Origin: Vicinamibacterales bacterium
GTDB taxonomy: Bacteria > Acidobacteriota > Vicinamibacteria > Vicinamibacterales > UBA2999
Direction: 5' to 3'
Assembly: GCA_030680175.1 (NCBI GenBank)
Contig: JAUXWO010000036.1
Location: 62,001-126,000 of the forward strand
Length of the DNA stretch: 64,000 bases
A program made the position numbers and the translations under genes. Of the stretch, positions 1,139-14,273 are shown one piece after another (position 1 is the first letter of the stretch; every line of letters starts with the position of its first letter). The notes below the pieces were generated by a model. That model saw only the letters and a program-made list of their open reading frames with translations, searched no databases and was not told the DNA's origin.

Positions 1139-2152
1139 CTACCGACCGGGCGCGAGGCCACGCACCGCCCCGATGAGGTGGTCCTTGAATTCGGGAGCGA
1201 CCTCGAAGCAGTACCGCACTCGCCGCTCGGAGCCCACATCGGGCGCGACGGTCAGGTAGGGCTTCTCCACCGGGGTCGTCCCCTGCATCCTCGCTTCAGT
1301 GCCGTCGTCGGGTCCGAGGACAATCGCCGCCGGCAGCATCTCGCAGGTGACGAACTGCGGAGTGGCCACCGCCGCCACCGCAAGCGTATCGAACGGGTTG
1401 AACCCGTCCACGGCAAAGACGTCACGCCACACCTGGAGCCATGCGCGCGCCGGCCCGGCCAGCCACTGTGCGGCGAGGCCACCCGTCGCGAGGCGGTCGA
1501 GGTCCGCCCCGGTCAGCCACACCTGCGACGAAATCTCGAACGGCGTCAGCGTCAACGGCACCTCGGCGTCGAGGAGCACACGGAATGCTTCGGGGTCGAG
1601 TTCGAAGTTGAGATCGCGATGGGCCGCCGGGTTCGTGGTCCCGGTGGTGAACCGCTGCCCCGGCCGACGACCCGCCACCGCCACGATCTCCCGAATGCGA
1701 GACGTGAGGGCGGGATGCCTCATCACCACGGTCGCCACATTGGTCGCGGGCCCCAGCACGAGGATCGTGAGCGACTCCTCGCGCAGGTGCTCGGCAAGGG
1801 CTCGCGAGGCCTCGGTTTCCACGCCAAGCATCCCGGCTGACGACGCCCCCGGGAACACGTGTACACCAGCCGGCCCCAGGAGGCGCACGAGGTCCGCCGC
1901 GATCCGCCCGGTGTCGCTGAGTGGCGCGTTGCCGAAGACCGCCGATACCCCACGCACGGTCAGGTGGGACGCGGCAAACGCCTGGGCGAGTGCCAGCGCG
2001 TCGTCCACGTCACGCTCGGGCAATCCGGCCGCCGGGTCCGTGTCGATCCAGATGGGATGCGACGCACCACACGAGATCCCCAGGCTCACCAGTCCGGCCA
2101 AGGCCACCACGACAAGGGTGGTGGCAGCGGGACGACGTCGCGCGCGTCTCAT
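1139..2152 (-). CDS. Nucleoside hydrolase (IU-NH family), exported
   Basis: Inosine-uridine nucleoside N-ribohydrolase family: cleaves the N-glycosidic bond of nucleosides. An N-terminal membrane helix ends near SLGISCGAS, so the protein is exported; the cysteine could be a weak lipobox. The metal-binding motif is IDTDPAAG followed by DVDDALAL, seven residues longer between the first Asp and the DD pair than the textbook DTDxGxDD. Later family features include GPATNVA and the segment with HRDLNFELDP. About 337 residues, close to the usual 310-340. The ATG at 2152 overlaps the stop of the upstream kinase as ATGA, which decides this start over one 24 bases upstream. With the sugar kinase it suggests release and capture of the sugar of a nucleoside, an inference from position. 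Confidence 0.85.
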   Translation of the reverse strand: MRRARRRPAATTLVVVALAGLVSLGISCGASHPIWIDTDPAAGLPERDVDDALALAQAFAASHLTVRGVSAVFGNAPLSDTGRIAADLVRLLGPAGVHVFPGASSAGMLGVETEASRALAEHLREESLTILVLGPATNVATVVMRHPALTSRIREIVAVAGRRPGQRFTTGTTNPAAHRDLNFELDPEAFRVLLDAEVPLTLTPFEISSQVWLTGADLDRLATGGLAAQWLAGPARAWLQVWRDVFAVDGFNPFDTLAVAAVATPQFVTCEMLPAAIVLGPDDGTEARMQGTTPVEKPYLTVAPDVGSERRVRYCFEVAPEFKDHLIGAVRGLAPGR

Positions 2153-3189
2153 GCCGCCACGTCGCGCTCGCCGCACACCAGGGCGCGAGCCAGCTCCAGT
2201 GCGGCCCGGCGATGGTCGAGTCCGGACAGCAGGGGCAACTGCGCCACGCCGAGTACGCGGCGCAGGATCTCCGCGCCGGCATACCGCGCCACAAGCGGGC
2301 GCTCGAACCCCCGGCGGGCTCCGTACGTGTCGAGCGCGAGGGCCACCAGCGACGGCTGGTGCGCGAGGTGCAGATGCGCCACCATGACGCCGAGATCGAA
2401 CTCGACCTCGCCGAGAAACGCGAACTCGAAGTCGATCACGCGCGGCCCGTCGGGCGCGCGCAGCCAGCTCCCCGGAAAGAAGTCACCGTGCGCGAGTCCG
2501 TCACCGTCGCTCAGGTAGCGCCGGCCGAGGCCGGCCATCTCCTCGACCAGCCGGGTGTCGCGCCGCATGGCGCCGGCCAGGGCCGCCAGACCGGGACAGA
2601 CCGCATCGAGGCCGGCCTCGGCGCCCGATCGGAGCGGCTGATGAAAGATGTACTCGTGATTCAAGGCCCGCATGGCGTGATTGCCGAGCCTCTGCCGATG
2701 CGCGGGCGGCACGGGTGCGTCGTGAAACGCGGCGAGCCAGGCCGCCAGCGACTCGACCTCCTGTGACGCGATCGCCCCGCCCTGGTAGACACCGGCAAAG
2801 TCAGCCGCCGGCCCCAGGTCCTCAACCGCGAGGATCTGAGACTCCTCGTCGACGCCGATCAGCGCCGGGGTGCCCTGTGCCGTTGCGGGCAGGCGCCTGG
2901 CGATCTCGTAGCACGCCCCCTCGACGGCGATTCGGCCCCAGGGCGCCGCAATTGTCGGGTACTTCTCGACCCACGGCCGTCCCTGCTTGACGATCAGCGA
3001 GCCGGTCGTGGTCTCGACGCGCAGCGTGAGGTTCATGTTGCCGTCGCCCGCGCGTTCGGCACGCTGCACGCTGGCCCACGGCGTAATCCACAGGCGCGCG
3101 CGCAGGTAGGACTCGAGCCCGTCCAGATCTGCCGGGTCGAGGGCGAAGGCCCGCGGGTGGGCGGTGTGCAGCGTGGCGATCGTCGTCAT
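2149..3189 (-). CDS. Methylthioribose-kinase-like sugar kinase (APH fold)
   Basis: Protein-kinase-like fold of the aminoglycoside phosphotransferase/MtnK group. Family signs in order: AGDGNMNLTLRV (ATP loop), LIVKQGRPWVEKYP (catalytic lysine), HGDFFPGSW (catalytic loop, replacing HGDLHTGS of MtnK) and VIDFEFAFLGEVEFDLG, very close to the metal-binding segment of methylthioribose kinases. At 346 residues it is shorter than classical MtnK (about 400). Likely reaction: ATP-dependent phosphorylation of 5-methylthioribose or a related pentose made by the overlapping nucleoside hydrolase. The altered catalytic loop leaves the substrate open. Transcription probably starts from the GTAAC-N17-GAC element 27 bases upstream of the ATG. 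Confidence 0.75.
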   Translation of the reverse strand: MTTIATLHTAHPRAFALDPADLDGLESYLRARLWITPWASVQRAERAGDGNMNLTLRVETTTGSLIVKQGRPWVEKYPTIAAPWGRIAVEGACYEIARRLPATAQGTPALIGVDEESQILAVEDLGPAADFAGVYQGGAIASQEVESLAAWLAAFHDAPVPPAHRQRLGNHAMRALNHEYIFHQPLRSGAEAGLDAVCPGLAALAGAMRRDTRLVEEMAGLGRRYLSDGDGLAHGDFFPGSWLRAPDGPRVIDFEFAFLGEVEFDLGVMVAHLHLAHQPSLVALALDTYGARRGFERPLVARYAGAEILRRVLGVAQLPLLSGLDHRRAALELARALVCGERDVAA

Positions 3190-7739: not shown

Positions 7740-8582
7740 ATGCCGCTTCATTCATACGCAAGACGCCTCGCCGCTGGTCTCACCCTGACAATGGCGCTCG
7801 CGAGCGGCGATGCGCTCGGCGGCCTCACGGCCTTCGACCACGGGTATGCGGCGTTCGGCCGTGTGCTCGCCGCGGCCGTGCGGGGCGATCGCGTCGATTA
7901 TCGGAACCTGGCGGCCAACCGTGCGGACCTCGACACCGCCGTCGCCGCGTTCGACGCTCCGGCGACACACGCCCTCGAGACGTGGACCCGGCCGCAGCAG
8001 CTGGCATTCTGGATCAACGCCTACAACGCCTTCACTCTGCAGGCCATCGTCGGCCACTATCCCATTCAGCGCCGGCGCTTCAGTCTGCACCCCGCGAGCA
8101 GCATCCGCCAGATCCCGGGCGTCTGGGATCGCCTCACCTGGCGGGCCGCGGGGCGCACGGTCACGCTCGACGAGATCGAACATGCGATCATCCGGCCGGG
8201 GTTCGACGAGCCGCTCATCCACTTCGCCGTCAACTGCGCCTCCGTCAGCTGCCCGCCGCTGGCCGCGGAACCGTACCGCGCCGCGACGCTGGAGGCGCAG
8301 CTCGAAGCCGCGGCGGAGCGCTACCTCGCGAGCCCGCACGGCCTGCAGCGGGTCGGACGGCTGTGGCGCGTGTCGAGCCTCTTCAAGTGGTACGGCGACG
8401 ACTTCGTCGACCGCTTTGCGCAGGACGATGCGCGCGCGCGATCGGCCAGGGACGGGGCCATCCAGAGCGTCATCGAGACCTACGGGCCGCCGGACATCCG
8501 GACCGTCGTGAACGGCCGCATCCGTATCGCCTTCATCGCGTATGACTGGTCGCTCAACGACATCGAGGAGACCCACCGATGA
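7740..8582 (+). CDS. Exported DUF547 protein
   Basis: 280 residues with an N-terminal hydrophobic segment (RRLAAGLTLTMALA), then a full DUF547 domain: YRNLAANRADLD, QQLAFWINAYNAFTLQAI, HPASSIRQIPGVWD, IHFAVNCASVSCPPLAAEPY and LFKWYGDDF. The Asn-Cys-SCPPL segment is the conserved core; the biochemical function of this family is not established, though it recurs beside redox and selenium proteins. The ATG at 7740 is chosen because the signal sequence begins there. The stop overlaps the start of the DUF3179 selenoprotein as ATGA, so the two are translationally coupled. A second DUF547 domain in this window is fused to a TVP38 protein (59838-61463). Confidence 0.85.
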   Translation: MPLHSYARRLAAGLTLTMALASGDALGGLTAFDHGYAAFGRVLAAAVRGDRVDYRNLAANRADLDTAVAAFDAPATHALETWTRPQQLAFWINAYNAFTLQAIVGHYPIQRRRFSLHPASSIRQIPGVWDRLTWRAAGRTVTLDEIEHAIIRPGFDEPLIHFAVNCASVSCPPLAAEPYRAATLEAQLEAAAERYLASPHGLQRVGRLWRVSSLFKWYGDDFVDRFAQDDARARSARDGAIQSVIETYGPPDIRTVVNGRIRIAFIAYDWSLNDIEETHR

Positions 8583-9619
8583 TCAAGAGGATCGCCCGAG
8601 CCGCAGCGGTCGTATTCGTCGCGCTGGCTGGACTCGGCGCGGCGCAGCGCTGGGTCGAGCAGGTCACCATTGACGGCGACCCGGTGCTGCGTGGCCTGCC
8701 GAAGGACGCAATCCCGGCCATCGACCGGCCACGGTTCGTCCCGGCCACCCAGGCCACGTTCGTCGCCGACGAGGAACCGGTGATCGGCCTCGTGGCCGGC
8801 GACGACGCGCGGGCGTACCCCACCTGGCTGCTGAACGCCCACGAGATCGTCAACGACCACATGGGAGGCCGCGCCATTGCGGTCACCTGGTGACCGCTCT
8901 GCTATACGGGCATCGTGTATGCCCGCACGGTCGACGGTGAAGAGCTCAGCTTCGGCGTCTCGGGCATGCTCTGGCGCGACAACCTCGTGATGTACGACCG
9001 GCAGTCCGAGTCCTGGTGGGCCCAGGGATCCGGCCAGGCCATCCGGGGCCCCCGCCGCGGCACACAACTCGAGCAGGTCGCCTCGGACATGATGACCTGG
9101 AAGGAATGGCGCACACTGCACCCGCGCACGCGTGTGTTGGCGCCCGAGGTGACGCGCGACCGCACCGGCCGCGACGTCTACGCTTCGTACCACCGCAGCC
9201 GCAGCATCGGCGTCACGGGCCGGACGCGCAGCGCCGGCGCGCTCGACGCCAAGGCCCAGGTGCTCGGATTCCGCATCGGGCGCGACAGCTTCGCGGTGGA
9301 GACCGGGCGCCTGGCCCGCGATCCCGTGATGCAGGCGGAGGCCGGTGACACGCCGGTGGTCGTCGTGGCGTCACCGGACCGCTCCTCGGCGCGGGCCTTT
9401 GTCGCCGCCGGCCACACCTTCCGTGACGTGCGCGAGGAGGCGGGGCGTGTGCGCATGACGGACGAGAAGACCGGGTCGCACTGGGACGCGTTTGCGGGTC
9501 GGGCGGTCTCTGGCCCGCTGGCCGGACAGCAGCTCGAATCCGTCGTCGCGCATCTGTCCTACTGGTTCTCGTGGCACTCGTTCTTCCCGGAGAGCGTGGT
9601 GCTCACGCCCTCCAGGTAG
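8579..9619 (+). CDS. DUF3179 selenoprotein (in-frame TGA read as Sec)
   Basis: The frame from ATG 8579 runs to 9619 with one in-frame TGA at 8891-8893 (residue 105). The translation reads AIAVTW-U-PLCYTGIVYAR; DUF3179 proteins normally have VTWCPLC here, so selenocysteine replaces the first Cys of the CxxC. The sequence after the TGA is a normal full-length DUF3179 domain (FGVSGMLWRDNLVMYDR, SWWAQGSGQAIRGP), which argues against a decayed gene. A hairpin fitting a bacterial SECIS element starts 14 bases after the TGA. A signal-like helix (AAAVVFVALAGLGA) suggests an envelope location. The product is 346 residues. Function of DUF3179 is unknown; a U-x-x-C pair implies thiol/selenol redox chemistry. 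It overlaps the DUF547 gene by ATGA. Confidence 0.88.
8891..8932 (+). promoter_or_regulatory. Putative bacterial SECIS element of the DUF3179 gene
   Basis: After the TGA come 14 bases, then GGGCAT (8908-8913), loop CGTGT (8914-8918) and ATGCCC (8919-8924): a perfect 6-bp stem with a 5-base loop. An outer 5-bp stem GACCG (8892-8896) / CGGTC (8928-8932) encloses it. Position and shape fit the SelB-binding hairpins that follow Sec codons in bacteria. The second selenoprotein gene of the window has the same spacing and nearly the same loop. Confidence 0.8.
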
Positions 9620-12114: not shown

Positions 12115-12861
12115 ATGCCTGATCGCCGTACCTCGACGTCCTCCCGCCGGGCATCCGCGGCGCCGCCGCGCGCGCCGCGAACCCTGACCATCGACATCGG
12201 CGGGTCGGGACTCAAAGCCGCCCTGCTCGACGCCCGCGGGCATGTGATCGGCGACCCCGTGCGCATACCGACACCCGCCGACCGGCCACCCGACGCGATC
12301 GTCCGTGTCCTCGTCGGTCTTGTCTCGCCTCTCGGTGTCTGCGATCGGGTCTCGGTCGGCTTCCCGGGACTCGTGCGCGACGGCGTGGTCCAGACCGCCC
12401 CCAACTTCGACAGCCCCGCATGGCAGGGCTTCGCTCTCGCGGATGCCCTGGCCCAGGCCCTCGATCGGCCGGTCCGGGTGTTGAATGACGCCGACCTGCA
12501 GGGGCTCGGGGCAATCTCGGGCCGGGGTCTCGAACTCGTGGTGACACTCGGCACCGGCGTCGGCACGGCGCTATTTCTCGACGGCCGGCTCCTGCCGCAT
12601 CTGGAGCTGTCACGGCACCCCGTGCACCGCGGCAAGAACTACGACCAGTACCTCGGGAAGGCCGCCCGGAAGCGGGTGGGCAAGCGCAGGTGGCGGGCGC
12701 GCGTCCACCGTGTGCTGGCCATCCTCGAGTCGGTCATCAACTACGACACGCTCCACATCGGGGGCGGCGGGGCGAAGCATCTGGGCGACGTCGCCGCGCC
12801 CCGCATCCGTCTGACCGACAACAGGGCCGCGCTCATCGGCGGGCTGGCGGTGTGGCGCTGA
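12115..12861 (+). CDS. ppgK: Polyphosphate glucokinase (ROK family)
   Basis: 248 residues. ROK-type ATPase fold: phosphate loop TLTIDIGGSGLKAALLD, VGFPGLVRDGVV, active-site VRVLNDADLQGLGA with catalytic Asp, and VVTLGTGVGTALFLDG. The segment HPVHRGKNYDQYLGKAARKR is the mark of the PPGK subgroup, which can phosphorylate glucose with polyphosphate. Length is usual for PPGK. The SLC13 carrier gene begins inside the last codons. A link to the GH15 glucoamylase at 37390 (glucose release, then phosphorylation) is plausible but rests on function, not position. Confidence 0.85.
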   Translation: MPDRRTSTSSRRASAAPPRAPRTLTIDIGGSGLKAALLDARGHVIGDPVRIPTPADRPPDAIVRVLVGLVSPLGVCDRVSVGFPGLVRDGVVQTAPNFDSPAWQGFALADALAQALDRPVRVLNDADLQGLGAISGRGLELVVTLGTGVGTALFLDGRLLPHLELSRHPVHRGKNYDQYLGKAARKRVGKRRWRARVHRVLAILESVINYDTLHIGGGGAKHLGDVAAPRIRLTDNRAALIGGLAVWR

Positions 12862-14273
12862 GCACGGCCGGCGCCGCCAGCGTCGCCAATCCGGGGCTCC
12901 GCCTCCTGCTGATTGCCTCTGTCGGCCTGGTGCTGCTGGCGCTGCCGGCGCCGGCCACGCTGGGGGTCGCCGGCTCTCGCACGGGAATCATCTTCGTCGT
13001 CGCGTTGCTCCTGTGGGTCACCGAGGCGCTGCCGATGGCCGTCACCGCCCTGCTCGTCCTCGTGCTCCAGCCGCTCCTCGGCGTGGCGCCGGCGCGCACG
13101 GCCTTCACGACGTTCATGAGCCCGGTGTTCTTCTTCGTCCTGGCCATGTTCGCGATCGCGTTGGTCATCGTGTCGACCGGACTCGACCGCCGCTTTGCGC
13201 TGTGGCTGCTCGCCCGCGCCGGCACCAGCCCGCGCCGCGTGGTCGGCGCCTTCATGGCGGGCACCGCCGCGCTTTCCAGCATCATGTCCGACGTCCCGGC
13301 CTGCGCCATCTTCATGGCGCTGGCCGTCGGTGTCCTCAATCGGGCCGGCGTACCCGTCGGAGGATCGGCATTCGGCAAGGCCCTGATGATCGGGATCCCG
13401 ATGGCCGCCTACATCGGCGGGGTCGCCACGCCGGTCGGCAGTTCGGTCAACATCGTCGGGATGCACTTCATCGAACAGTTTGGCGGGGTCCGGGTGCCGT
13501 TCGTCACGTGGATGCTGATCGGGGTGCCCATGGCCGTCGTCCTCGTGCCGCTGGCGGCCACGGTGCTGGTGGCCGTGTACCCGCCGGAGATCGAGACGGT
13601 CGGCCACATCGACGAGGTGCTGGCAGAACGACGCGGTCTCGGCGGGATCAGCGCGCCCGAATGGAAGGCGGTGATGGTCATCGGCGCGATGATCGGTCTG
13701 TGGACAGCCAGCAGCTGGGTGCCGGCGCTGGACCTGACGCTCATCGCCGTGACCGGTGCGATCGTCATGTTCCTGCCCGGCGTGCGACTGCTGACGTGGG
13801 CGGAGGCCGAGCGCGGCATCGGCTGGAGCGTGCTGTTCCTGCTGGGCGCCGTGACGTCGCTCGGCGCCGCCTCCGAGGCGACGGGCCTCGCCACGTGGAT
13901 CGTCGACGCGGCCCTGGGCGGGATTGCCGGCTGGCCCATCGCCGCGATGGTCGCCGCCATCGGCACGCTCACCGTGCTCGTGCTGCTGGTGCTGCCCATC
14001 GGACCGGTCGTCAACGCGATCCTGATTCCGCCCATCTCCGTGCTGGCGCTGGCGCATGACACCCATCCGCTCACGTACACCCTGCCGGTCGCCTTCACGG
14101 CCTCCTGTGCGCTGCTGCTGCCGCTCAATCCCGTCGGTGCGATCACCTACAGCAGGGGCTATTATCAGATGCACGACATGTTGGGACCGGGGCTGCTTGT
14201 CAGTCTGGCGTGGGTGGTGTGGATCACGGTGCTGATGGTCACGTTCCTGCCTGTCCTGGCCGGAGGCGCCTGA
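12852..14273 (+). CDS. SLC13/DASS-type anion:sodium symporter
   Basis: 473 residues from a GTG at 12852 that overlaps the glucokinase stop. About eleven to twelve helices. Family motifs: TGIIFVVALLLWVTEALPM near the start, GTAALSSIMSDVPACAIFMA (first re-entrant hairpin, SNT-like position), YIGGVATPVGSSVNIVG with the anion-binding SSVNIVG, and late FTASCALLLPLNPVGAITYS. DASS carriers import dicarboxylates, sulfate or phosphate with sodium. The substrate is not readable. Following genes encode an OsmC-like protein and a CoA-ligase-like enzyme, so an organic acid is a reasonable guess. Confidence 0.85.
   Translation: MALSTAGAASVANPGLRLLLIASVGLVLLALPAPATLGVAGSRTGIIFVVALLLWVTEALPMAVTALLVLVLQPLLGVAPARTAFTTFMSPVFFFVLAMFAIALVIVSTGLDRRFALWLLARAGTSPRRVVGAFMAGTAALSSIMSDVPACAIFMALAVGVLNRAGVPVGGSAFGKALMIGIPMAAYIGGVATPVGSSVNIVGMHFIEQFGGVRVPFVTWMLIGVPMAVVLVPLAATVLVAVYPPEIETVGHIDEVLAERRGLGGISAPEWKAVMVIGAMIGLWTASSWVPALDLTLIAVTGAIVMFLPGVRLLTWAEAERGIGWSVLFLLGAVTSLGAASEATGLATWIVDAALGGIAGWPIAAMVAAIGTLTVLVLLVLPIGPVVNAILIPPISVLALAHDTHPLTYTLPVAFTASCALLLPLNPVGAITYSRGYYQMHDMLGPGLLVSLAWVVWITVLMVTFLPVLAGGA

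Follow-up and report, generated by a model that had tools for sequence, protein, structure and literature searches.

The DUF3179 gene and its neighbours

The 64-kb stretch of DNA analyzed here (the window) carries, on its plus strand, a DUF3179 gene with a single in-frame TGA, which begins at the very end of a gene for a DUF547 protein. The features of this locus are as follows.

7740..8582, plus strand: DUF547 protein (PF04784, 96.3 bits), with a normal TGA stop overlapping the DUF3179 start (ATGA)
8579..9619, plus strand: predicted DUF3179 selenoprotein coding sequence, 346 aa with selenocysteine (Sec) as residue 105 (TGA=U translation; Pfam PF11376)
8579..8647, plus strand: hydrophobic N-terminus, apparently export-signal-like from a reading of the sequence, MIKRIARAAAVVFVALAGLGAAQ
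8771..9148, plus strand: first predicted DUF3179 repeat, with an invariant His, UxxC and invariant Asp and Trp (AlphaFold2 model; hhalign of the halves)
8891..8893, plus strand: TGA codon, predicted to be read as Sec in a TWUPLC motif (the aligned codon is TGA in another 31 genes and TGC/TGT in 19 homologues, all of the same order)
8900..8902, plus strand: second Cys of UxxC, residue 108, the likely resolving residue (invariant column in a 39-sequence alignment)
8907..8925, plus strand: putative apical hairpin of a SECIS element, CGGGCAT-CGTGT-ATGCCCG (minimum free energy (MFE) fold; pairing in 99% of its cells across 15 genes)
9251..9616, plus strand: second predicted DUF3179 repeat, without Cys (AlphaFold2 model; hhalign of the halves; Rieske-like fold match)

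In the translation of the window, the DUF3179 frame opens with the ATG at 8579 and ends with the TAG at 9617-9619, the TGA at 8891-8893 being its sole interruption. The preliminary description of this DNA held that one normal DUF3179 domain is encoded on the two sides of this codon, and the read-through product does match the Pfam profile PF11376 from end to end (positions 1-292 of 292; 292.8 bits against a cut-off of 27 bits, E 4.1e-87). As it had also anticipated, plain ORF calling cuts the gene into two pieces, 8579-8893 (104 aa) and 8915-9619 (234 aa), and the active-site motif is lost. The TGA stands where the motif TWCPLC has its first Cys, and the protein contains no Sec or Cys other than Sec105 and Cys108. 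A scan of the whole window for in-frame TGA codons returned, besides 8891-8893, three sites that resemble ordinary stops and lie near following genes. The Rfam scan of the window gave zero matches, and the NCBIfam search gave no family for either the DUF3179 or the DUF547 protein.

The ATGA shared by the DUF547 and DUF3179 genes at 8579-8582 permits translational coupling, which had been proposed for this pair. The overlap itself is present, but of the other genomes examined, with flanks of mostly about 1.5 kb or less, just two have a DUF547 gene next to DUF3179, upstream in one and downstream in the other. These neighbourhoods give no support to a conserved DUF547 operon, and any coupling appears to be local. 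Elsewhere in the window, a symporter of the sodium:sulfate / citrate type is encoded at 12690-14273 (PF00939, 139.6 bits), and a nucleoside hydrolase (PF01156) and an APH-type phosphotransferase (PF01636) are encoded on the minus strand at 1139-2176 and 2149-3189, respectively.

Reading of the TGA as selenocysteine

We surveyed 162 genomes of the same order and found DUF3179 in 75 of them. Among the 51 distinct sequences extracted, the aligned codon is TGA in 32 and TGC or TGT in 19, in agreement with the claim that the TGA replaces the first Cys of the motif. The possibility that relatives end at this codon is not borne out, as it is also TGA in another 31 genes of the order, whose frames continue beyond it; each of the 32 TGA members has exactly one TGA within the matched domain. 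The motif classes with TGA are TWUPLC (that of the window), TWUSYC, TYUTLC, TWUNRC, TFUVVC/TFUPAC and TWUPLT.

A 6-bp hairpin with a CGTGT loop (GGGCAT-CGTGT-ATGCCC) had been noted downstream of the TGA. It is present and covarying and, with a flanking C-G pair, its stem comprises 7 bp (8907-8913 with 8919-8925); the hairpin starts 13 nt, and its loop 20 nt, past the TGA. The MFE fold of 51 nt includes it (-19.2 kcal/mol), but this fold is not unusually stable relative to shuffled sequences (z -0.80), and the case for a SECIS element is therefore one of conservation rather than energy. Conservation was assessed in the 15 genes with TGA that belong to the window's motif class (CPLC, one CPLT). 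All seven pairs are intact in 14 of these genes, and 99.0% of the cells of the 7-bp stem are paired, compared to 93.3% in shuffles. Changes on both sides were seen at two of the seven pairs (three sequences have G-C in place of T-A, and one has G-C in place of A-T), and the covariation score of the stem was reached by none of 500 shuffles. The best-hairpin score averages 18.9 in the Sec genes vs. 11.8 in the Cys homologues; within the window's class, the hairpin of the Cys members is broken widely in L030 and L035 and by one pair in L038. The paired stem contains ACT..AGA in 11 of the 15 genes, although both codons are rare in this GC-rich genome (6 of 397 Arg codons are AGA and 9 of 234 Thr codons are ACT in sampled genes of the window). 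Part of the hairpin conservation could reflect protein constraint, since much of it lies in codons for conserved residues.

The published limits for bacterial SECIS (bSECIS) elements are a loop of 3-9 nt, a stem of 4-16 bp, a G within loop positions 1-2 and a spacing of 16-37 nt (PMC13188914), and the window hairpin lies within them with its 7-bp stem, CGTGT loop and 20-nt spacing. It is similar to elements of the bSECISearch model in loop size, G in the loop, spacing and stem length, and unlike them in having a sequence specific to its DUF3179 subfamily. In the remaining TGA subfamilies, the hairpin is a different one, similarly spaced and with GT or GG in its loop. A 5-bp outer stem that had been proposed to enclose the hairpin (GACCG at 8892-8896 with CGGTC at 8928-8932) did not hold up: it is not part of the MFE pairing, its cells are paired as often as in shuffles (69.3% vs. 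69.0%) and it shows no covariation, and a conserved outer stem was thus rejected.

The assembly containing the window (4.98 Mb, rated 100% complete) encodes the complete set of selA, selB, selD and tRNA-Sec that the preliminary description had named as a check on its reading. SelA scores 517 bits (cut-off 268), SelB 321 bits over its frame (cut-off 242) and SelD, on the window's own contig, 273 bits (cut-off 125); the tRNA-Sec scores 64.8 bits and is also called by ARAGORN, with anticodon TCA. Across the order, selA is above cut-off in 27 of 29 genomes with a TGA-type DUF3179 gene, compared to 94 of the 133 others (Fisher p 0.007, kinship ignored). Two TGA carriers represented by drafts lack selA above cut-off: G102 (93% complete), where SelB is also not above cut-off, and G033 (81% complete), where a SelB fragment is present.

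Selenocysteine insertion is close to certain, given the full domain, the presence of the machinery, the shared TGA, the conserved and covarying hairpin and its fit to the bSECIS limits, and the gene almost certainly encodes a DUF3179 selenoprotein in which the TGA at 8891-8893 is read as Sec. Open-frame tests alone cannot separate Sec from another residue, and one may therefore think of a general code change, with TGA read as Trp or Cys, or of non-specific read-through. This is very improbable, because TGA serves as the ordinary stop of the neighbouring DUF547 gene (8580-8582), a tRNA-Sec with anticodon TCA is present together with SelA, SelB and SelD, and the hairpin agrees with the bSECIS model. 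We give equally little credence to a pseudogene or to two separate proteins with the TGA as a true stop, as the two ORFs of mechanical calling might suggest: conservation extends over the entire domain, before and after the TGA, the second ORF would begin past the active site, and the TGA at one codon is the only internal stop across the relatives examined, whereas a pseudogene would be expected to show TAA, TAG or frameshifts too. Least credible of all is an ordinary Cys gene whose TGC or TGT was turned into TGA by an error of sequencing or assembly, for although Cys homologues with these codons exist, one of them (L002) on the same contig, an error cannot account for a TGA shared by 32 genes of the order, in many separately assembled genomes, together with a conserved downstream hairpin missing from the Cys homologues.

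In the synthesis of the selenoprotein, SelB with Sec-tRNA would bind the hairpin at 8907-8925 and Sec would be inserted at the UGA (8891-8893), giving a 346-residue protein in which TWUPLC replaces the Cys-x-x-Cys of homologues.

Predicted structure and possible function

The AlphaFold2 model based on the 39-sequence alignment (pLDDT 90.6, pTM 0.89) is mostly beta and consists of two similar halves. These halves align with each other in hhalign (probability 99.3%, E 4.7e-20), which indicates that the DUF3179 domain is a duplication. A separate, alignment-free model of the first repeat was of low quality (pLDDT 57) and was discarded. UxxC occurs in the first half only, where the model places it in a hairpin between strands 73-80 and 85-90. 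The residues invariant in the alignment include His63, Sec/Cys80, Cys83, Asp115 and Trp122 (numbering from base 8654).

In VIA-align, the second repeat matched Rieske ferredoxins over 89 residues (Z 9.4, rmsd 2.4) and the first repeat the Rieske fold (Z 7.3), nearly all of the best 50 rows being Rieske proteins; Foldseek gives this likeness weak E-values of 0.04 and above. Both halves of the model appear to resemble the Rieske [2Fe-2S] fold, from which DUF3179 differs in being duplicated, in lacking the cluster ligand motifs (C-x-H ... C-x2-H) and in showing no sequence similarity: hhalign against 24 Rieske domains from relatives of the same order gave E 0.42 and 0.013 with a probability under 4%. 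A PDB sequence search gave no match with the window protein and no meaningful one with the profile. In our reading, the predicted DUF3179 structure is a Rieske-like beta fold that is duplicated in tandem and lacks the cluster ligands. The notion that N-x-H-x16-U-x2-C is a disguised Rieske motif C-x-H-x16-C-x2-H was set aside, having no hhalign support and a structural match that puts the cluster loops elsewhere.

Judging from its export-signal-like N-terminus, the DUF3179 selenoprotein is probably exported and would act outside the cytoplasm. The UxxC motif makes a redox role of the Sec/Cys pair fairly probable, in which case the pair would form a selenol-thiol centre, with Cys108 as the resolving residue, at a beta-hairpin tip within the first of the two duplicated Rieske-like domains. 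Alternatively, the Sec/Cys site might be a metal or cluster ligand, i.e. a reworked Rieske-type site that includes the invariant His, which would be compatible with the selenoprotein reading. The apparent Rieske likeness of each half and the invariance of His63, Sec80, Cys83, Asp115 and Trp122 are in keeping with such a site. We nevertheless consider it unlikely, as the C-x-H and C-x2-H ligand motifs are missing, the structural match ranges set the Rieske cluster loops away from the UxxC hairpin, and hhalign finds no sequence relation to the Rieske proteins of the order.

Distribution of the TGA form and candidate Sec-to-Cys changes

A phylum sample of 149 genomes gave one TGA in 35 of about 70 DUF3179 matches among those listed, and the two of these matches that were checked (L111 and L118) have the TGA at the motif and a readable hairpin downstream. 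TGA forms are thus found in many genomes of the phylum. TGA members are easily overlooked, since gene callers break them at the active site. The protein search of genome contigs returned four loci, three of which were recovered again by the whole-genome search. A distant TGA subfamily with the motifs TFUVVC / TFUPAC (L071-L077) gives low-scoring Pfam matches and has a hairpin of its own, of 7-8 bp and of the type CGGAACCA-GTC-TGGTTCCG. One DUF3179 match of the order (G160:C25:6190-7092) has two TGA and one TAG inside and is probably a decayed copy.

The Cys members of the order share the DUF3179 domain, but their codon at the site is TGC or TGT and the hairpin is absent from that position. The example on the contig of the Sec gene, L002 1495-2424 (G000:C94:59838-60749), has Cys in a VYCTLC motif and lies about 1.25 kb before the window start, on the other strand and ~10 kb from the Sec gene. 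On the tree of the 51 sequences, which is midpoint-rooted and has some weak nodes, so that the direction of change is inferred, the Sec/Cys label requires four changes compared to a mean of 15.5 for shuffled labels. The Cys members L038, L030 and L035 are placed among Sec members, inside clades of the window's motif class, and the simplest reading is that they represent three candidate losses of Sec in favour of Cys within this class. Their genomes have kept SelB in all three cases and selA in two. Sec-to-Cys changes have been called rare in bacteria, documented mainly for FdhA and SelD (2026 review, PMC13188914), and the nested Cys members are candidate cases set against this rarity.

As a tentative picture of the whole, DUF3179 may be a duplicated Rieske-like scaffold without an Fe-S cluster, with an exported selenol/thiol redox site in its first repeat, and at the same time a common selenoprotein of the phylum that reverted from Sec to Cys in several lineages while the Sec machinery was kept.

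Two published catalogues of prokaryotic selenoproteins include DUF3179, with the motif UxxC/T, and both credit it to the study of the Olavius algarvensis delta-symbiont by Zhang and Gladyshev in 2007 (PMC9312934, PMC13188914). The window gene is similar to this family (PF11376) in its domain, in Sec within UxxC and in a bacterial in-frame SECIS element, and differs in coming from another phylum, which is probably Acidobacteria, since MAGs of that phylum are the nearest records with a name; a text search of the two reviews found no mention of Acidobacteria (PMC9312934, PMC13188914). It appears to be a well-supported new DUF3179 selenoprotein of a family catalogued since 2007 and a type of system already known; the finding is thus correct but, as DUF3179 is already in the published lists, not new in kind. 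What is added here is the spread of the TGA form in the phylum, the implied Sec-to-Cys losses and the duplicated Rieske-like fold model, the fold prediction being a lead on the function of DUF3179. The same domain is encoded by DUF3179 genes on haloarchaeal plasmids, which were found by DNA similarity only.
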